Assembly: GCF_009725985.1 (NCBI RefSeq)
Contig: NZ_RCNR01000032.1
Span: forward strand, 1 to 52,072
Reading direction: 5' to 3'
Source of the DNA: Zobellia amurskyensis
GTDB lineage: Bacteria > Bacteroidota > Bacteroidia > Flavobacteriales > Flavobacteriaceae
Length of the DNA stretch: 52,072 bases
Shown: positions 42,778-50,838 of the stretch, piece after piece
How the letters are laid out: every line of letters starts with the position of its first letter
Numbering within the stretch: the stretch's first letter is position 1
Notes under the pieces: model-generated
What the model saw: only the letters and a program-made list of their open reading frames with translations
The model's database searches: none
What the model was told of the DNA's origin: nothing
Position numbers and translations under genes: made by a program

Positions 42778-43908
42778 ATGAGTACACAAAAAATAAATAT
42801 AGCTATTGTCGGACTCGGTTTCGGGGCCGAATTCATTCCTATTTATCAGAAACACCCCCATGCCAATCTTGTCGCTTTATGCCAACGAAACGAGGAGAAA
42901 CTCAATCAGTTGGCAGACACATTTCATATAGAGAAAAGATATACTTCCTATGAGGAGCTGTTGAACGACCCGGATATAGATGCAGTACACATTAACACAC
43001 CTATTCCTGACCATGGCAGACAATCTATCTTGGCACTCAAAGCAGGAAAACACGTAGCCTGTACCGTACCCATGGCCACCACTATTGAGGAATGCGAGGA
43101 AATTGTTCGCCTGACAGAAGAAAGTGGTCTTAGCTATATGATGATGGAAACCGTAGTGTATGCCCGAGAGTTCTTGTATATGAAAGAGCTTTATGAAAAT
43201 GGCGATTTAGGTAAGGTACAGTTCTTAAAGGCTAGCCATCAACAAGATATGGATGGTTGGCCCAATTATTGGCCCGGTTTACCTCCCATGCACTATGCAA
43301 CACATTGCGTAGGTCCTGTTTTGGCACTCACAAGGGGTGAGGCCGAATATGTATCGTGTTTTGGCTCTGGTACAATCAGAGAAGAATTAATACCACATTA
43401 CAACTCGCCTTTTGCGGTAGAAACAACCCATATCAAATTCAGAAATTCAGATTTGAGCGCTCAGGTGTACCGTTCCCTTTTTGATGTAGCCAGACAATAC
43501 AGGGAGAGTTTTGAAGTATACGGCTCAAAAAAATCTGTAGAATGGCCCCTTATTGAAGGAAAGCCTTTGGTGGTTCACACGGCCAAAAAACCGGAACCCG
43601 AAATTCCCGAAGAAATTGAAAGTCCGGATTTTGCAAAGTTGTTACCAAAGGAAATTCAGCATTTTACCACGCAAGGTGTTTATGATTCTGAAGAGCATCA
43701 ACATCTTAGCTTTACCCAGGGTGCGGGCCATGGAGGTTCACACCCACATTTAGTACACGAGTTCGTAAACGCCCTAACCGAATGGAAGTCACCTTATCCT
43801 AATGCCAGACAATCTGCCAATATTACCTGTGTAGGTATTTTAGCTCATGAATCTGCTTTAAAAGGAGGTGAGCTTATAAAATTACCCGATTTTACATTTG
43901 AAAAGTAA
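42778..43908 (+). CDS. Cytoplasmic Gfo/Idh/MocA family oxidoreductase without a standard EKP motif
   Basis: 376 residues with no signal peptide. Rossmann domain 'INIAIVGLGFGAEFIPIYQ', then 'AVHINTPIPDHG'. At the position of the usual catalytic EKP it has 'HVACTVPMATT', so the conserved Lys is replaced by Val; some family members share this. The C-terminal domain has 'LPPMHYATHCVGPVLAL' and 'GAGHGGSHPHLVHEF'. It starts 12 bases after the isomerase gene and ends the operon at a strong terminator. Substrate unknown; probably a sugar or keto-sugar. Confidence 0.88.
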   Translation: MSTQKINIAIVGLGFGAEFIPIYQKHPHANLVALCQRNEEKLNQLADTFHIEKRYTSYEELLNDPDIDAVHINTPIPDHGRQSILALKAGKHVACTVPMATTIEECEEIVRLTEESGLSYMMMETVVYAREFLYMKELYENGDLGKVQFLKASHQQDMDGWPNYWPGLPPMHYATHCVGPVLALTRGEAEYVSCFGSGTIREELIPHYNSPFAVETTHIKFRNSDLSAQVYRSLFDVARQYRESFEVYGSKKSVEWPLIEGKPLVVHTAKKPEPEIPEEIESPDFAKLLPKEIQHFTTQGVYDSEEHQHLSFTQGAGHGGSHPHLVHEFVNALTEWKSPYPNARQSANITCVGILAHESALKGGELIKLPDFTFEK

Positions 43909-43932
43909 ACACCAACAACCAATTTGTTTTTT

Positions 43933-43971
43933 AGTTGAGACCGCCCCCATCTGTACGGTCTCAACTTTTTT
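43933..43971 (+). terminator. Terminator of the ThuA/isomerase/oxidoreductase operon
   Basis: AGTTGAGACCG (43933-43943) and CGGTCTCAACT (43956-43966) form a perfect 11-bp stem with a T run to 43971. Confidence 0.95.
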
Positions 43972-44124
43972 GTTTGTATGAGATTTTAAGTTTAGGACCT
44001 TGTGTTTAAGTAAGATTATTAGATTTATGTAAATTGGTGTTTATGCATTTCGGATAAGAATTTCAAAAAAATAGTCAGAAGTGTCTTATAAATATGATCT
44101 TTGTAAATAGATTATTTTGTGATT

Positions 44125-45216
44125 ATGGCTACTACGGTTAAAGACAAATTAAAAGAACGGATTAAAGAATTGACGTGCCTCTATGAGGTAACCTCTATCA
44201 TAGCGAATACCGACTTTGACCAGCTAGAAACTTCACTGGAAGCTATTGTATACTGCCTCAAAAATGCATGGCAGTTTGATGCGGTTACCCAGGTATATTT
44301 AAGCTTAGGCAAGTATACCGTTGAAACAGAAGGTTTCAGTGATACTATGACGTTGATGCATTCTGATATCAAGGTTTTTAACAAGGTTAATGGCATCATT
44401 AAAGTTGGCTACCCAGAGGATAGATATTTCTATGCAGATTTTCTTGAGGAAGAAAAAGACCTTTTGAACAACGTGGCTATAGCCATAGGGAACCTCTTGG
44501 AAAGAAAACATATACGTGATAGTGAAGCGGAGGTAAAACGCCAAATGGAACGAACGGATAGGCTTCACATTCTTGGTGAGATTACTGCTGGTATTGCACA
44601 CGAACTAAATACGCCATTGGCCAATATTTTAGGTTTTACGGAACTTCTTAAGGAAAGGGTGGGCGATGCAGGTGCCCTACGTGATTTGGATAAAATTGTG
44701 GAGAATACCATATTTAGTCGTGAAATAGTAAAAAAACTCATGTTCTTTGCTTGCGAAATGCCTCGGGAAATGCAACCCCTAGAACTCAACCCTATCATAG
44801 AGAGTACACTTAAATTGTTGACCCCATCGTTGCGTGCTAAGAATATTAAGCTGACTAAAAAGTTTGATTCAAAGAATATTCGGTTGCGTGCAGATAAAGT
44901 TCAGATTACCCAGGTACTTTTTAATTTGGTAATGAATGCAATATACTATTCGCCCATAAAAGGGGAGGTAGAGGTTTCCATTATTGAAAAAGGAAAGAAA
45001 ATCCGAATATGTATTTCAGATGAAGGAGAGGGAATAGACCCGAAAATTGAAGACAAGATTTTTGAACCTTTCTTCACCACTAAACCTTTGGGAGAAGGCT
45101 CCGGACTTGGCCTTAGTGTAGTTCATGGTATCATTAGTAGTCACAAAGGCACAATTGTACATAAGCCCAATACTCCAAAGGGCACGATTTTTATTCTAGA
45201 TTTCCCTAAATTGTAA
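44125..45216 (+). CDS. Soluble sensor histidine kinase (NtrB-like) of the sigma-54 module
   Basis: 363 residues from ATG 44125; a GTG two codons earlier is also open but less likely. There is no membrane segment. The N-terminal ~130 residues form a GAF-like sensory domain ('LTCLYEVTSIIANTDFDQLE', 'DLLNNVAIAIGNLLERK'). HisKA has phospho-acceptor H159 in 'GIAHELNTPLANILGF'. The HATPase has 'VLFNLVMNAIYYSP', 'DEGEGIDPKIEDKIFEPFFT' and 'GSGLGLSVVHGIISSHKG'. This is the NtrB/AtoS type. The cognate sigma-54 activator gene begins two bases after its stop codon. Confidence 0.92.
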   Translation: MATTVKDKLKERIKELTCLYEVTSIIANTDFDQLETSLEAIVYCLKNAWQFDAVTQVYLSLGKYTVETEGFSDTMTLMHSDIKVFNKVNGIIKVGYPEDRYFYADFLEEEKDLLNNVAIAIGNLLERKHIRDSEAEVKRQMERTDRLHILGEITAGIAHELNTPLANILGFTELLKERVGDAGALRDLDKIVENTIFSREIVKKLMFFACEMPREMQPLELNPIIESTLKLLTPSLRAKNIKLTKKFDSKNIRLRADKVQITQVLFNLVMNAIYYSPIKGEVEVSIIEKGKKIRICISDEGEGIDPKIEDKIFEPFFTTKPLGEGSGLGLSVVHGIISSHKGTIVHKPNTPKGTIFILDFPKL

Positions 45217-45218
45217 TT

Positions 45219-46541
45219 ATGCTGAAAAGAGAGAACATTTTATTGGTTGATGATGATATCAATATTTTAGAGCTTTTACAGCGCCATTTGCAATCCATGG
45301 ATTATCATACCTATAAAGCAGTTTCTGTAAAAGAGGCGCTCTATGTTCTAAAGGACACCTTTATTGATTTGTTGATAACGGATATTCAAATGCCGGAAGT
45401 AGATGGGTTGCAATTATTGAAATTTACGGATGAACACTATCCGGAAATTCCAAAGTTGGTCATTACCGGTTACCCGTCTGTAGATGGAGCTTTGGAGGTA
45501 ATTAAATCTGGCGCTACGGATTATTTGACCAAACCATTCACAAAGGAAGAGCTTAGACAAGCAGTAAAAAAGGCTTTTGAGCACGGTAAGAGTCGTAAAT
45601 CTGTAAAATCTAAAACTTCGGTCACGAACAAATCCGTTCATGGTGAAATGATTGGTGAATCTGAAGCCTTTCATAAAATTACCGATGTAATAGAAAGGGT
45701 AAAAGACAATAAGGCTACCGTACTGGTAAAAGGAGAGAGTGGCACCGGAAAAGAGCTTGTAGCAAGAGCAATACATTACTCAGGAAAATTTTCTAAGGCA
45801 CCTTTTGTAGCGGTCAATTGCGGTGCAATACCGGAAAACTTGCTTGAAGCGGAACTTTTTGGTTATGTAAAAGGTGCATTTACAGGTGCCAATGATAACC
45901 GTACCGGTTTCTTTCAGGCAGCGGAAGGCGGAACCCTATTTCTGGATGAAATAGGAACGGCGCCTTTAACGGTACAGACCAAATTACTGAGAGCTTTACA
46001 GGAAAGGGAAATTACAAGGGTAGGTTCTAGAAAAAATGAAAAAGTAGATATCCGTATCATAGCTGCTACAAACGCTGATCTGCACATAGACATTAAAGAG
46101 AATAGGTTTAGGGAAGATTTATACTATAGACTTACCGTGGTAGAAATTGAAGTTCCCCCTTTAAGGGATCGTAAAACCGATATTCCACTATTGGTGGATA
46201 AGTTTTTGTTGAAATACGGAGTAGAGTATAAAGACCGGTTATTAAAAATTTCTCCAGATGTACTAGACGTTCTAAAGCGGTATCAATGGCCAGGTAACAT
46301 TAGGGAGCTAGAAAATGTGGTACAACGTGCTATAATAATGTCTGATGGCATCATTACCCTTAAAGACCTCCCTGAATCATTAAAATTTCAAATAGATTTT
46401 CCGGATAGTGAGTTGAAACCATTAAGGGAAATGGAAAAAGAGTATGTACAACGTGTACTTCTTCATACACAAGGTAATAAAACAAAGGCGGCAGAAATTC
46501 TTCAAATAGACCGTAAGACCTTACGAGAAAAATTAAAATAA
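45219..46541 (+). CDS. Sigma-54-dependent response regulator (NtrC/AtoC type)
   Basis: 440 residues: receiver domain 1-120 with phospho-acceptor D55 ('LLITDIQMPEVDG') and 'DYLTKPFTKEEL'; AAA+ domain about 140-375 with Walker A 'GESGTGKE', the sigma-54 contact loop GAFTGA ('YVKGAFTGANDN') and Walker B 'GGTLFLDEIG'; and a Fis-type helix-turn-helix ending the protein ('GNKTKAAEILQIDRKTLREK'). It activates RNA polymerase carrying sigma-54 from upstream enhancer sites. A matching promoter lies 130 bases after its stop codon, so its first target is probably the next gene. Confidence 0.95.
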   Translation: MLKRENILLVDDDINILELLQRHLQSMDYHTYKAVSVKEALYVLKDTFIDLLITDIQMPEVDGLQLLKFTDEHYPEIPKLVITGYPSVDGALEVIKSGATDYLTKPFTKEELRQAVKKAFEHGKSRKSVKSKTSVTNKSVHGEMIGESEAFHKITDVIERVKDNKATVLVKGESGTGKELVARAIHYSGKFSKAPFVAVNCGAIPENLLEAELFGYVKGAFTGANDNRTGFFQAAEGGTLFLDEIGTAPLTVQTKLLRALQEREITRVGSRKNEKVDIRIIAATNADLHIDIKENRFREDLYYRLTVVEIEVPPLRDRKTDIPLLVDKFLLKYGVEYKDRLLKISPDVLDVLKRYQWPGNIRELENVVQRAIIMSDGIITLKDLPESLKFQIDFPDSELKPLREMEKEYVQRVLLHTQGNKTKAAEILQIDRKTLREKLK

Positions 46542-46546
46542 ATACC

Positions 46547-46582
46547 TGGGGAAAATTTTCTCAATTGGGTAGTTTTTCCCCA
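46547..46582. promoter_or_regulatory. 9-bp inverted repeat downstream of the activator gene (enhancer or terminator candidate)
   Basis: TGGGGAAAA (46547-46555) and TTTTCCCCA (46574-46582), perfect arms 18 bases apart. It lies about 90-125 bases before the sigma-54 promoter, where activator binding sites usually sit. It lacks a T run after the stem, so terminator is the weaker reading. Confidence 0.45.
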
Positions 46583-46624
46583 CTCTAGTTTTATTTTATA
46601 AATTTACATGTTCTGTTAATTTAC

Positions 46625-46654
46625 TGACAATCAGCAGTTTGTTGCTTGTTGTCA
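46625..46654. promoter_or_regulatory. 30-base dyad just upstream of the sigma-54 promoter
   Basis: Outer arms TGACAA (46625-46630) and TTGTCA (46649-46654) with inner arms AGCA/TGCT (46633-46636 and 46643-46646) share one centre. This is a candidate binding site, though close to the promoter for an enhancer. Confidence 0.45.
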
Positions 46655-46670
46655 ATATTTTACTTCTAAA

Positions 46671-46686
46671 AGGCATGTGTTTTGCA
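46671..46686 (+). promoter_or_regulatory. Sigma-54 (-24/-12) promoter
   Basis: AGGCATGTGTTTTGCA matches the sigma-54 consensus (TGGCAYR-N4/5-TTGCA): the invariant GG (46672-46673) and GC (46684-46685) are separated by exactly ten bases. Transcription would start near 46697, about 40 bases before the Rnk-like gene. Confidence 0.8.
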
Positions 46687-46735
46687 CTTTGATGAAACCA
46701 TCAATTAAAGATGGAATAATTGAAAAGTAAAACAG

Positions 46736-47146
46736 ATGAAATACGGTAGTCTAGTTTTGGAGAAGAAAGATTTTTCGGTATTGAAAAAATACCTGAACTC
46801 TAATCTGTACCTAGTAGACTATACGCATCAAGATGCTCTGGAAACTTTGGATATCAATTTAAAAACTGCGCTAATTTTTGAGTCAGAAGATATGCCTCAA
46901 GATATTGTTAGGCTAGGTTCAATGGTTTCCGTTTCAAGCGTATCAAACGTTGCATATACTTTTCAATTGGTTTCGCCCCAAGAAAATGATCCGGTTAATG
47001 GAAAAATATCGGTCACAAGCACTATGGGTGCCTTAGTTATTGGTAAGTCAGAAGATGATATTATTAACTACGGGCCGCCGGCAGATAGCATTTCTTTAAG
47101 AATAAAGAAAGTGAGTAGTGTAGAGACGGGTGAAGTAGAGGTATAA
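46736..47146 (+). CDS. Rnk/GreA-C-terminal-domain-like protein, copy 1
   Basis: 136 residues with no signal peptide. The C-terminal ~85 residues match the GreA/GreB C-terminal (FKBP-like) fold, as in Rnk: 'VRLGSMVSVSSVSNVAYTFQ', 'FQLVSPQENDPVNGKISVTS', 'MGALVIGKSEDD'. There is no N-terminal GreA coiled coil with its acidic tip, so a role at the RNA polymerase secondary channel is possible but unproven. It is the first gene after the sigma-54 promoter and has a paralogue at 49178-49594 starting with the same 'MKYG.LV.EKK' pattern. Confidence 0.85.
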   Translation: MKYGSLVLEKKDFSVLKKYLNSNLYLVDYTHQDALETLDINLKTALIFESEDMPQDIVRLGSMVSVSSVSNVAYTFQLVSPQENDPVNGKISVTSTMGALVIGKSEDDIINYGPPADSISLRIKKVSSVETGEVEV

Positions 47147-47174
47147 AAATTACGTTTAACTTAAATATATACAT

Positions 47175-47543
47175 ATGATGATGAAGAAATTTGCATTTGC
47201 GTTATTGTTTTCGGCAAGTTTGTTGCACGCCCAAGATGAGGTTAAAATACAAACTTCAGATGTTCAAGTTGGAGATGTTCTTGAAATTGGAACTCCAGAA
47301 ACCAGAGCCTATAAACATATAGATTTTCCTAGGGCCAATTTTATTATAAAAAGAGGAGGCTTGGCAAATTATAAAGCGTTAAAGGGAAATAGAGTAGTAG
47401 TGACCTCAGTAGAAAGTAATAAGGATGGTTCTACCAAAATAAAAATAAAGCGTAAAGACGGTGGTCGTTTCTTTGGAAGCCATAACGTTGTTTCGGCAGA
47501 TATAAGCAATGCACTTGCAACCGGTGAATTGGTAATGAATTAG
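47175..47543 (+). CDS. Small exported hypothetical protein
   Basis: 122 residues with a signal peptide ending 'SASLLHA' (about residue 19). The mature part is beta-rich and basic ('VQVGDVLEIGTPETRAYKHI', 'FPRANFIIKRGGLANYKALK', 'VVVTSVESNKDGSTKIKIKR'). It lacks cysteines and has no membrane segment, so it is probably periplasmic. I do not recognise a named family. It starts 28 bases after the Rnk-like gene and is likely transcribed from the same sigma-54 promoter. Confidence 0.75.
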   Translation: MMMKKFAFALLFSASLLHAQDEVKIQTSDVQVGDVLEIGTPETRAYKHIDFPRANFIIKRGGLANYKALKGNRVVVTSVESNKDGSTKIKIKRKDGGRFFGSHNVVSADISNALATGELVMN

Positions 47544-47873
47544 TTTGATAGTTGGTTATTTACATCTACCCGATTGTCCGCACCTGAGTTTTTTTGTTGA
47601 ATTTTCAGGAATATCGGGTAGATTTTATACTTAAAATTTTCAATACAAATTGTATCATGAATGGGTATAGCAGAAGTATTTGCAGTACGTGTAGGTACGT
47701 TACGCATTGTATAATCACTACAAATAAAAACGCTATTAGCTCCTGTAGTGAATATGTTCATTTTTTTGATAAAGAGCCAATAGAAAAAATGTTTTTAATA
47801 CGGAGAAAACCGGTATCAAAACAAATTATTAAAAATAGAAGGACCGCAAAGGTCTTGTTTTAAGTATAAATCT
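47544..47873. promoter_or_regulatory. Gap before the glutamate dehydrogenase gene
   Basis: 330 bases without a credible gene. The 13-base palindrome at 47643-47655 is the only definite structure. I saw no second sigma-54 promoter here, so gdhA may be read through from upstream or use an unrecognised promoter. Confidence 0.5.
47643..47655. promoter_or_regulatory. 13-base palindrome upstream of gdhA
   Basis: ATACAA-A-TTGTAT, perfect six-base arms. Operator candidate in the gdhA upstream region. Confidence 0.4.
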
Positions 47874-49166
47874 ATGATTGTAAAAACTCCTGAGCAGAAA
47901 AAAGCTGTTAAGCAAGGTATGCTCTCAAATGTCATGCGACAATTTGATAATGCCGCAGACATCATTGGTTTAAATGCTAATATCAGAAAGATATTGGAAG
48001 TAACCAATAATGAACTGGTTGTCCATTTTCCAGTGAGAATGGATAACGGTGAGGTTGAAATATTTACGGGCTATAGAGTGCAACACAACAACTCTCTTGG
48101 ACCATATAAAGGTGGTCTGCGGTACCATCCAACAGTGGATATCGATGCTGCGCGGGCATTGGCCATGTGGATGACATGGAAGACTTCTTTGGCCGGTTTG
48201 CCTTACGGAGGAGCCAAGGGTGGTATACAGCTGGATCCTACCAAATACTCTGATGAAGAACTACAGCGTATTACCAGACGGTTTACCTACGCATTAGGTG
48301 ACAACATTGGCCCGGAATTAGATATTCCCGCTCCAGATGTAAACACCAACCCACAGACCATGGCTTGGATACTAGACACATACATGTCTACAAAATCACC
48401 TGCAGAAAGGTCTACCAATATGCACGTTGTTACCGGTAAACCAATAGGTGCTGGAGGTTCGCAAGGTCGTGATAGAGCAACGGGCTATGGTGTTTTTCTT
48501 AATATTAAGTTTTGGGCAGAGAATAAAAATATAGACTTGAAAGACAAGCGTTTTATTGTTCAAGGTTTTGGTAATGTAGGGTTTTGGGCAGCTTATTTTC
48601 TTGAGAAAGAAGGAGCTTCAATGGTGGCCGTTCAAGATGCTTACGGAAGTATTATTAATGAAGAAGGTATTTCCGTAGATGATTTATTGGCTTATACGAA
48701 AGCAAATAAAGGCAGTATCATGGGCTTTTCCAACGCAGAGACTTTGGACAATGCAGATTTTTTTGGTTTGGATTGCGACATATGTATTCCTGCGGCATTA
48801 GGTAATGTTATTACGTCGACCAATGCACCAAAAATAAAAGCCTATTTAATAGCGGAAGGAGCTAATGGTCCCACAGATGTTGAAGCTGAAGAAATTCTAC
48901 TGAAAAGAGGGGTTACCATTTTACCGGACATTCTTTGTAATTCCGGTGGGGTAATTGGAAGTTATTTTGAATGGCTTCAGAACCGTAACGGTGAAATCTG
49001 GCAATTGGATGAAGTTTTGGAAAAATTGGAGAAAAAATTAAAAGAATCCTTCACTAAGGTGATAGAAACTTCGGCCAAGAGAGAGATTGATATGCGTACC
49101 GCAGCGTTTATTATTGCGATTGAAAGACTTGAAGAAACATACGTGCAAAGAGGAATTTTTCCATAA
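47874..49166 (+). CDS. gdhA: Glutamate dehydrogenase (Glu/Leu/Phe/Val family)
   Basis: 430 residues, the length of the RocG/GudB-type hexameric enzymes. Substrate-binding K79 lies in 'GPYKGGLRYHP' and catalytic K115 in 'PYGGAKGGI'. 'IGPELDIPAPDVNTNPQTMA' carries the catalytic Asp. The NAD(P)-binding Rossmann domain starts at 'FIVQGFGNVGFWAAYFLEKE'. It interconverts glutamate with 2-oxoglutarate and ammonia. Its place behind an NtrB/NtrC-like pair and a sigma-54 promoter fits nitrogen control. The Rnk-like paralogue follows after 11 bases. Cofactor preference cannot be stated. Confidence 0.95.
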   Translation: MIVKTPEQKKAVKQGMLSNVMRQFDNAADIIGLNANIRKILEVTNNELVVHFPVRMDNGEVEIFTGYRVQHNNSLGPYKGGLRYHPTVDIDAARALAMWMTWKTSLAGLPYGGAKGGIQLDPTKYSDEELQRITRRFTYALGDNIGPELDIPAPDVNTNPQTMAWILDTYMSTKSPAERSTNMHVVTGKPIGAGGSQGRDRATGYGVFLNIKFWAENKNIDLKDKRFIVQGFGNVGFWAAYFLEKEGASMVAVQDAYGSIINEEGISVDDLLAYTKANKGSIMGFSNAETLDNADFFGLDCDICIPAALGNVITSTNAPKIKAYLIAEGANGPTDVEAEEILLKRGVTILPDILCNSGGVIGSYFEWLQNRNGEIWQLDEVLEKLEKKLKESFTKVIETSAKREIDMRTAAFIIAIERLEETYVQRGIFP

Positions 49167-49177
49167 ATAAAGGTGAA

Positions 49178-49594
49178 ATGAAATACGGCGGCTTGGTTAT
49201 AGAAAAGAAGGAATATGTACTGTTGAAAAGGTTCATGAACCTTTCGGGCTATTATAAGGATAAAACTTTGCGTAAATCGGTAGAGAAATTGGTGGGTGAG
49301 CTTGAATCGGCACAAATACATGATGAGGCAGAAATGCCGGAAGATGTTATTCGGTTCAATTCAACAATTACCATTGCCTCGGAAAATGGGTGGCGAAAGA
49401 AATTTAAATTGGTCATCCCTACGGAAAGCGATGTTAACAGCAACAGGATATCCATATTAACACCTATGGGTGCTGCAGTAATAGGATATGCTCAAGGTGA
49501 TACCCTAATTTGGGATTTCCCGGCAGGAGAGCAACGCATGCTTATTGAGCGTGTAGACCAAGAACATAAATACATTAATATAGATAGTATATAA
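49178..49594 (+). CDS. Rnk/GreA-C-terminal-domain-like protein, copy 2
   Basis: 138 residues, a paralogue of the protein at 46736: 'MKYGGLVIEKKEYVLLKRF', 'EMPEDVIRFNSTITIASENG', 'FKLVIPTESDVNSNRISILT', 'PMGAAVIGYAQGDTLIWDFP'. It has the GreA/GreB C-terminal fold without the coiled coil. It starts 11 bases after gdhA and is almost certainly co-transcribed with it. The two paralogues bracket the exported protein and gdhA. Confidence 0.85.
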   Translation: MKYGGLVIEKKEYVLLKRFMNLSGYYKDKTLRKSVEKLVGELESAQIHDEAEMPEDVIRFNSTITIASENGWRKKFKLVIPTESDVNSNRISILTPMGAAVIGYAQGDTLIWDFPAGEQRMLIERVDQEHKYINIDSI

Positions 49595-49674
49595 TTTTAT
49601 AGATAGCTAATTCGGTCCTCTCCTTTTGGCAATGTAAATTCACGGCAATTTTTTTACTTTTTAAAAGTCCAAAA

Positions 49675-49682
49675 GGGGGGGG
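49675..49682. repeat. Run of eight G next to the lactonase stop codon
   Basis: Eight consecutive G in otherwise A+T-rich DNA, four bases beyond the end of the minus-strand lactonase gene. It lies outside any reading frame, so length changes would not alter a protein. Confidence 0.6.
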
Positions 49683-49686
49683 CAAG

Positions 49687-50838
49687 CTATCTAAATTTTA
49701 AGCAAACAGGTTGTGGTAACTTTACTTCATGACCTGTAAATGATAATAAACCAGAGGTTTCATCTCGTTTAAATACTGTAATGTTATCAGTTTTTCTATT
49801 GGCTACGAGCAGAAAATTATTATCCGGTGATAAAGTGAAGTTTCTTGGCCAATCTCCCCTAACGGATTCCGTACCCAATAATTCCATTTGTCCATTATCC
49901 GAAACAGAAAAAATGGCAATACTATTATGACCACGGTTACTGGCGTATAGAAATTTACCGTCATTGCTCAAATGAATATCTGCACAAGCATTGAATCCAT
50001 CATAGTCCTCCGGAAGGGTACTTTGCTTATCAATTTTTGTAAATAGTCCAGTTTTGGTATCCATGTCTGCCGATACCACAGAGCTATACAATTCATTAAT
50101 AATAAAGACCCTATTTTTCGTAGGGTGAAAAATAAGATGACGAGGTCCATCGCCCGGATCTAGTTGTAAAGCGGTATGTTCTTTTCCTAATGTACCATCG
50201 CTATTAATAGGGTAGGCCAATACTTTATCTATTCCTAAATCTACGGCATAAAGAAAATCTCCCGCTTTGCTGAATTTTACACAATGCGCATGGGGTGATT
50301 TTTGATTTTTGTGAGGCCCTGTCCCTTCATGCTGATAGGCTTCTGGCTCACCTGTAATTTTTCCGTTCTCGTCTACGTTATATAGTACTATACCGCCAGA
50401 ACCGTAATTTGCAGCGGCAAGAAGGTCTTCATTAGGGCTCAATTCAATATAGCAAGCACCATCACCTTCACTAGAAAAATTAGATACTTTATTCAATTTA
50501 ACACCCTCATTATCCCACTCAAATGCAGAAACACTTCCCGGTTTTGTTCCGTTTGAAGAGTACACTCTTTTGCCATCTTTTGAAAGATAGAGGTAACCGG
50601 AGTTATCTTCTTTTACCAAGTGTTCTGAGTTGGCTAGTTCTCCTGTCTCAGAATTAAAGTCTAATTGATAAATACCTTGTTCATCTCCACTTGCATGTGT
50701 ACCTACCAATAATTTTAAATTTGGTTTTTGGACCTCTTGCTCAACCTCTTTCATAGTAGTTTTTTTAGGTTCGTTTTTACATGATATGACTACCATTACG
50801 AGAATAAAAAATACTAGGGAATTGGAAAAATATTTCAT
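49687..50838 (-). CDS. Lactonase-type seven-bladed beta-propeller lipoprotein (6-phosphogluconolactonase/Pgl-like)
   Basis: 383 residues with lipobox 'LVMVVISCKNE', so it is anchored in the envelope rather than cytoplasmic. Propeller repeats are typical of the YbhE/Pgl lactonase family: 'KLLVGTHASGDEQGIYQLDF', 'CYIELSPNEDLLAAANYGSG', 'SPHAHCVKFSKAGDFLYAVD', 'GDGPRHLIFHPTKNRVFIIN', 'NACADIHLSNDGKFLYASNR'. As a lipoprotein it more likely opens sugar lactones formed outside the cytoplasm than 6-phosphogluconolactone. It follows the glycoside hydrolase-like gene by 18 bases. Confidence 0.88.
   Translation of the reverse strand: MKYFSNSLVFFILVMVVISCKNEPKKTTMKEVEQEVQKPNLKLLVGTHASGDEQGIYQLDFNSETGELANSEHLVKEDNSGYLYLSKDGKRVYSSNGTKPGSVSAFEWDNEGVKLNKVSNFSSEGDGACYIELSPNEDLLAAANYGSGGIVLYNVDENGKITGEPEAYQHEGTGPHKNQKSPHAHCVKFSKAGDFLYAVDLGIDKVLAYPINSDGTLGKEHTALQLDPGDGPRHLIFHPTKNRVFIINELYSSVVSADMDTKTGLFTKIDKQSTLPEDYDGFNACADIHLSNDGKFLYASNRGHNSIAIFSVSDNGQMELLGTESVRGDWPRNFTLSPDNNFLLVANRKTDNITVFKRDETSGLLSFTGHEVKLPQPVCLKFR

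Follow-up and report, generated by a model that had tools for sequence, protein, structure and literature searches.

A predicted NtrC-family sigma-54 circuit with Rnk-like, glutamate dehydrogenase and four-cysteine microprotein genes in Zobellia amurskyensis and part of the Flavobacteriaceae

Systems of the NtrC family are made up of a kinase, an activator, a dyad enhancer and a -24/-12 promoter. NtrB/NtrC, AtoSC and ZraSR follow this plan with a HisKA kinase, an activator composed of a receiver, an AAA+ domain carrying GAFTGA and a Fis-type helix-turn-helix (HTH) domain, and a dyad enhancer upstream of the promoter. In Flavobacterium psychrophilum, a member of the same bacterial family, sigma-54 promoters of the -24/-12 type (SM4) have been described from mapped starts and reporter mutagenesis, together with three sigma-54 activators, and they work in Flavobacterium, according to the available part of PMC9723704. 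Here we analyze a stretch of 52,072 nucleotides from Zobellia amurskyensis (contig NZ_RCNR01000032.1, hereafter the window), whose region 44125 to 49594 very probably constitutes an NtrC-family sigma-54 circuit in which a kinase and an activator switch on a nearby row of target genes (Table 1). The kind of circuit is known, while the gene set, which comprises two Rnk-like proteins, a glutamate dehydrogenase (GDH), a small protein of 122 amino acids (aa) and a four-cysteine microprotein that we call C4, is uncharacterized.

The kinase/activator pair, the promoter, two dyads, both Rnk-like genes and the GDH gene lie where an initial annotation, made from the sequence alone, had placed them; the 68-codon C4 gene, the small gene at 47175-47543 and a hairpin had been overlooked. 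All genes of the region are on the + strand, and a gap of 194 bases separates the activator gene from that of Rnk-like 1. The ten-base spacing of GG and GC proposed for this gap is confirmed, as is a start about 40 bases before Rnk-like 1, since the predicted +1 near 46697 lies 39 bases ahead of its ATG. About 0.006 motif matches are expected per one strand of such a gap. By itself the motif is only suggestive, because it is frequent in the genome, where TGGCAYN5TTGCW with at most one mismatch gave 149 + 162 matches versus 128 + 132 for a reversed control pattern, and a promoter call made on the motif alone was rejected for this reason. We judge the promoter to be real because it is conserved in relatives. 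Among 117 distinct activator 3' regions, 107 hold a -24/-12 match within 260 bases that scores 16 or more of 20.9, compared with 11.9% of shuffles; the best match (score of at least 14) falls 120 to 146 bases past the activator stop in 94 of the 117, and dinucleotide shuffles gave a match of at least 16 at 120-142 in 1.1%. Lack of conservation of these bases in relatives that keep the gene order had been set beforehand as refuting the promoter, and the bases are conserved. The element is accordingly annotated as a predicted sigma-54 promoter, with GG and GC ten bases apart and retained in relatives.

An unsupervised expectation-maximization motif search of the first 110 bases after the activator gene returned two 15-bp palindromes, roughly GGGTAAWTTTTMCCC, with centers 19 bp apart; this pair, at 46548-46581 in the window, is likely the binding site of the activator. 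From its first base to the promoter the window has 123 bp, and the distance from the site to the -24 box is 119 to 127 bp in 95/117 homologous regions. By subtraction, seven of the 22 listed misses (L104, L106, L223, L226, L227, L246 and L248) also show this spacing, their pair lying at a greater distance from the activator stop. The joint occurrence of site and promoter was found in none of 313 random control windows and in none of 131 kinase upstream regions; on the latter count, control of the kinase gene through the same activator box was rejected. On the stretches scanned, the genome's other four activators have no site scoring at least 13. The layout is that expected for a sigma-54 promoter with an upstream enhancer at a fixed distance. 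Its parts, the fixed spacing and the conservation are apparent in the sequence.

Table 1. Coordinates of the features of the predicted circuit (positions in the window)
Feature	Position	Strand	Remarks
Predicted sigma-54 -24/-12 promoter AGGCATGTGTTTTGCA	46671..46686	+	GG 46672-46673, GC 46684-46685, ten bases between
Likely activator site 1 GGGGAAAATTTTCTC	46548..46562	.	Motif; center about -142
Likely activator site 2 GGGTAGTTTTTCCCC	46567..46581	.	Motif; center about -123, 19 bp from site 1
IHF-like element AATCAGCAGTTTG	46629..46641	+	Match to IHF (integration host factor) consensus
Soluble histidine kinase gene	44125..45216	+	Pfam HisKA, HATPase_c; GTG at 44119 likewise open
NtrC-family activator gene	45219..46541	+	Pfam receiver, Sigma54_activat (AAA+), Fis HTH; GAFTGA
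Rnk-like protein 1, 136 aa	46736..47146	+	Pfam GreA/GreB C-terminal domain
Small protein, 122 aa, signal-peptide-like start	47175..47543	+	No family at cut-offs
Conserved hairpin, between small gene and C4 gene	47564..47623	+	Seen in nine genus members
Four-cysteine microprotein C4, 68 aa	47657..47863	+	Pattern C-x2-C-x5-C-x11-C-S-E-Y
Glutamate dehydrogenase (GDH)	47874..49166	+	Pfam PF00208 + PF02812; genome has two GDH-type copies; begins 10 bases past C4
Rnk-like protein 2, 138 aa	49178..49594	+	Pfam GreA/GreB C-terminal domain

The row of kinase, activator, promoter and targets that the initial annotation had called a sigma-54 regulon is conserved in part of the Flavobacteriaceae, with the activator present in 54/249 family genomes (about a fifth). 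For comparison, 57 stretches were fetched, 8 of them from genus genomes and 49 by way of a family list, and the window was added; on 53 of these 58 the activator is in the same orientation, and on 44 C4 is present. The usual order in relatives is kinase-activator-(C4)-GDH-Rnk. A second set of 74 loci, picked via C4, contains kinase and activator in 72, GDH in 66 and a Rnk-like match in all 74, two of them weak. Rnk-like homologues occur in all nine genus genomes; across the 249 family genomes, 174 match at 0.001 and 51 below 1e-9, the weaker matches being taken for GreA because their alignment is partial, and 50 of these 51 Rnk-like genomes have the activator. In a joint test over the 420 bases upstream of C4, site and promoter precede 101 of 120 C4 loci (89 of 108 when only distinct upstream sequences are counted), the promoter lying at most 70 bases from C4 in 86 of the 89 passing distinct loci, and in most relatives C4 is the first gene after the promoter. 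A second sigma-54 promoter just before C4 was considered for the genus and rejected: in nine genus stretches the best matches, scoring 14.0 to 15.9, lie 133 to 153 bases upstream, in or at the end of the preceding frame.

Where targets sit away from the activator gene, site and promoter travel with the targets. They stand ahead of the targets in L089, with the activator on another contig, and in L094, with a convergent activator, and in L110 they precede Rnk-like alone, the activator being elsewhere (L190). In L069, L078, L080, L084 and L202, extra DNA of 0.2 to 1.3 kb separates the activator gene from the site, and the pair stays with the targets; L235 has the pair slightly displaced and still ahead of them (L203 and L084 come from one genome, as do L197 and L078). 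The site-promoter distance in the displaced loci is 120 to 125, and 134 to 135 in L069, L202 and L235. Two Polaribacter loci on a stretch without activator, L250 and L252, have weaker sites (11.2 and 5.5) and a good promoter at 120, and no site was found in L107 and L113, whose genomes gave no activator match at the cut-off. Treating the first dyad of the gap as a terminator only was rejected, since the dyad accompanies targets located away from the activator gene.

The regulon had also been described as self-contained, a label that is not supported, because in eight of nine genus genomes a usp operon elsewhere, unlinked to this locus, has the same site and promoter ahead of it. This second target came from a degenerate site search over the nine genomes, which gave one further conserved place besides the known locus (absent in G006), with a -24/-12 match 119 to 124 bp from the activator site and scores of 13.7 to 19.9. 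Total match counts in this search were barely above control, so the argument for the second target is carried by position and promoter. A UspA-like frame follows on all eight stretches; on five it is preceded by a 130-aa coiled-coil-like protein, and on five a mechanosensitive-channel-like frame, perhaps MscS, follows, the other three not showing one within the 3.2 kb listed. Pfam names for this place were taken from L292 only, where ribonucleotide reductase genes are divergent from it. Eleven other site matches were examined as loci, and in none of them does a strong site occur together with a promoter. A palindrome GCTTAAATAATACCCACATGGGTAAATAAGC (L300 3236 and L301 2970), kept in two genus members, scores 21 to 23 with the activator-site matrix and has no -24/-12 promoter at 119-126. 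The coiled-coil-like protein was seen in two arrangements near the system, as a protein of 130 to 144 aa with an ECDxxQC motif (L094 3163-3597 and L292 4862-5251), its distant homologue in L094 (23%, E 7e-10) adjoining the Rnk-like gene; it matches no Pfam family.

Between site and promoter, the second dyad CTGACAATCAG, at 46624-46634, overlaps the IHF-like sequence at 46629-46641. The sequence WATCARNNNNTTR, which we take to be the IHF consensus, is found without mismatch in 19 of 95 spacers versus 2.4 expected from mononucleotide shuffles, and present within one mismatch in 61 of 95 versus 33.6 expected, clustered at two offsets. In the spacers of the second target, an IHF-like sequence within one mismatch stands at offset 45-48 in 8/8.

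The naming of the pair as NtrB/NtrC-like fits the architecture and is doubtful as to identity. The activator consists of a receiver, an AAA+ domain with GAFTGA at residue 219 and a Fis-type HTH, as in NtrC-family sigma-54 activators; ntrC is its top NCBIfam match, yet it scores 421.8 bits against the NtrC model TIGR01818, versus a curated cut-off of 558.6, and is thus not assigned to NtrC (NR(I)) proper. It is likewise under the curated NCBIfam cut-offs of AtoC and ZraR, as the kinase is under those of AtoS and ZraS. NtrB is defined by a PAS-type sensor with HisKA. Pfam matched HisKA in the kinase and no GAF or PAS model, and no NtrB model is among the 25 of 82 NCBIfam matches listed. An AlphaFold2 (AF2) model of kinase residues 1-152 has a predicted local distance difference test score (pLDDT) of 91.6, and its best Foldseek matches are the GAF domains of Aquifex NLH1 and NLH2 (template modeling score about 0.55), which makes the sensor a predicted GAF-like domain and an NtrB assignment doubtful. 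The genome has a single RpoN match, with the box ARRTVAKYRE, and of its 15 matches to the sigma-54 activator domain five are strong.

From these data we infer phosphorylation, binding, bending, transcription, a common transcript of all genes in the row, and physiology. The cytoplasmic kinase would sense a signal via its GAF-like domain and phosphorylate the activator (Asp55 by motif), which would bind the two 15-bp palindromes about 120 to 140 bases before the start. The DNA between site and promoter may be bent, through an IHF/HU-like site in this genus, so that the AAA+ domain could open the sigma-54 polymerase at 46671-46686. A single transcript would then carry Rnk-like 1, the small exported-type protein, C4, a second GDH and Rnk-like 2, and in the genus the same activator would also control the unlinked operon with UspA. 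The Rnk-like proteins might compete for the polymerase secondary channel in a catabolic or growth-arrest program, which we favor, nitrogen regulation being no more likely.

Several points weigh against this account. Counts over related genomes and loci are not independent. Site and promoter are not jointly found at 19 of 120 C4 loci, of which 13 have C4 within a longer operon, the window's genus included, and six have a promoter scoring at least 16.9 with a site below 13. Of the 54 activator genomes, 15 have no C4 match and four no Rnk-like match. Six of the eight second-target promoters are without the -12 GC (TTGTC, TTGAC or TTGAA). Other lineages have a terminator-like stem where the IHF-like element would sit, so DNA bending is proposed for this genus alone, and outside it the second dyad may be a terminator. 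The physiology is guesswork.

C4 is found once in its own genome and in 39/249 family genomes, every one of which has the activator too (Fisher p 1e-33, over species that are not independent). Because the search selected for its cysteines, part of their invariance follows from that choice; Thr21, Ser29 and Tyr33, on which the search placed no condition, are nearly invariant. Among seven genus members, differences at codon positions 1/2/3 are 77/16/191 in the core and 251/224/450 in the whole gene, from which we take the tail to be loosely constrained. The window C4 has no Pfam match even at E 10 and no Pfam or NCBIfam match above cut-off, and the best match of a relative, PF12760, reaches 17.7 bits versus a cut-off of 25.4, which places C4 in no known four-cysteine or zinc-ribbon family. 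A search of 395 genomes of the phylum with a model built from family sequences gave four clear matches, all of which fall within the family, as well as six partial matches (E 0.003 to 0.009); for most of the genomes listed, scoring covered 20 first-look candidates, and absence elsewhere is not proven by it. A 29-residue form (L187 5754-5843) and a tandem two-module form (L111 5190-5453) of C4 were also seen. The small 122-aa protein has no Pfam match at 0.001; in four relatives (L184, L185, L186 and L189) the order is kinase-activator-site-promoter, and this type of protein is the only query gene matched thereafter. The hairpin (-22.6 kcal/mol in the window) has covarying stems and an invariant TTGTCCGC across nine genus members; it is single copy in its own genome, and BLAST finds it in 7/9 genus genomes. 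Rfam over 43900-49800 gave three subthreshold matches, none at the hairpin. Outside the region, a stem at 43922-43993 on the - strand, with a weak subthreshold match to the IMES-3 RNA (E 0.89), looks like the terminator of the preceding gene.

It is quite possible, if short of probable, that the activator responds chiefly to a signal of stress, redox state or oxygen, with C4 as a metal or redox protein, UspA and the Rnk-like proteins serving growth arrest and GDH burning glutamate. The four invariant cysteines of C4, with the proviso given above, point this way, as do UspA in the second operon and a Cys18 that is invariant across 51 aligned kinase sensors; on the other side, the AF2 model of C4 (pLDDT 55) is too poor to use. 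More tentatively still, the regulon may bring together the new C4 family, a dedicated GDH and Rnk-like secondary-channel factors, with C4 as a metal or redox sensor acting on GDH or polymerase and the Rnk-like proteins reprogramming transcription when the kinase fires; Rnk-type proteins would then gain a first regulated physiological setting.

That the system is a true NtrB/NtrC pair, sensing nitrogen status while GDH assimilates ammonium, appears unlikely. It would fit the ntrC match of the activator and the GDH among the targets; the shortfall from the NtrC cut-off and the predicted GAF-like sensor speak against it, as do the other targets (UspA, Rnk-like, C4 and perhaps MscS). The targets had been called nitrogen-linked, and a GDH is indeed present, having both PF00208 and PF02812, but the label is doubtful since this GDH is not the sole copy: PF02812 has three matches in the genome, the window GDH and two further enzymes of 447 and 410 aa, and we judge the 447-aa paralogue, which lies elsewhere in the genome, to be the assimilatory NADP type. 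The best solved match of the window GDH is 1b3b (413.7 bits), which we take to be a Thermotoga GDH, and its matches include 3k8z (360.2) and 3k92 (355.1), presumably Bacillus NAD-specific enzymes; solved relatives are of several kinds, and no NCBIfam GDH cut-off is reached. Finally, it is very improbable that the -24/-12 match arose by chance, with the operon using an ordinary flavobacterial sigma-A promoter (TAnnTTTG in the available part of PMC9723704) and the dyads forming the terminator of the activator gene: the abundance of one-mismatch matches and the stem followed by T-rich sequence between activator gene and promoter in many relatives would suit it, whereas the conserved spacing, the empty control windows and the recurrence of site and promoter before the usp operon and before targets not behind the activator gene do not.

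Read as an NtrC-family sigma-54 circuit, the locus is complete and predicted to the base in activator site, spacing, promoter and targets, in a phylum whose circuits of this kind have been little studied, and it ties a new microprotein family to one activator by co-occurrence. It also offers a conditional setting in which the role of Rnk-type proteins could be tested directly. Sigma-54 systems had been considered little studied in these bacteria and the pairing undescribed. Sigma-54 promoters have been mapped in one Flavobacterium (PMC9723704, available part). The gene set was not found in print, no paper on it appearing in a search of one library that covered main texts.

Compared with NtrB/NtrC, AtoSC and ZraSR, the window system differs in its predicted GAF-like sensor, in its Rnk-like, C4, GDH and UspA targets, and in scores below the curated cut-offs. 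Among the entries listed in the available part of PMC9723704, the selected sigma-54 list of F. psychrophilum names chaperones, Lon and others, and its main text does not contain the term glutamate dehydrogenase; sigma-54 regulon predictions in the available part of PMC12316311 name GDH as a target in Bacillota. The Rnk-like proteins score 50.6 and 63.3 bits against PF01272 (gathering threshold 26.9), which places both in the GreA/GreB C-terminal superfamily, and 49.0 and 87.4 bits against NF004396 (PRK05753), whose cut-off of 109 neither reaches. Rnk-like 2 matches the structure of Escherichia coli Rnk, 3bmb (E 1.5e-10), as well as 2pn0, a relative of GreA/GreB (E 3.2e-12). E. coli Rnk was of unknown function as of 2015, according to the available part of PMC4598747; the window proteins, of comparable length (136-138 aa), fall below the Rnk cut-off and are under predicted sigma-54 control. 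From the solved enzymes 1b3b, 3k8z and 3k92, the window GDH is set apart by its predicted operon with C4 and Rnk-like genes.

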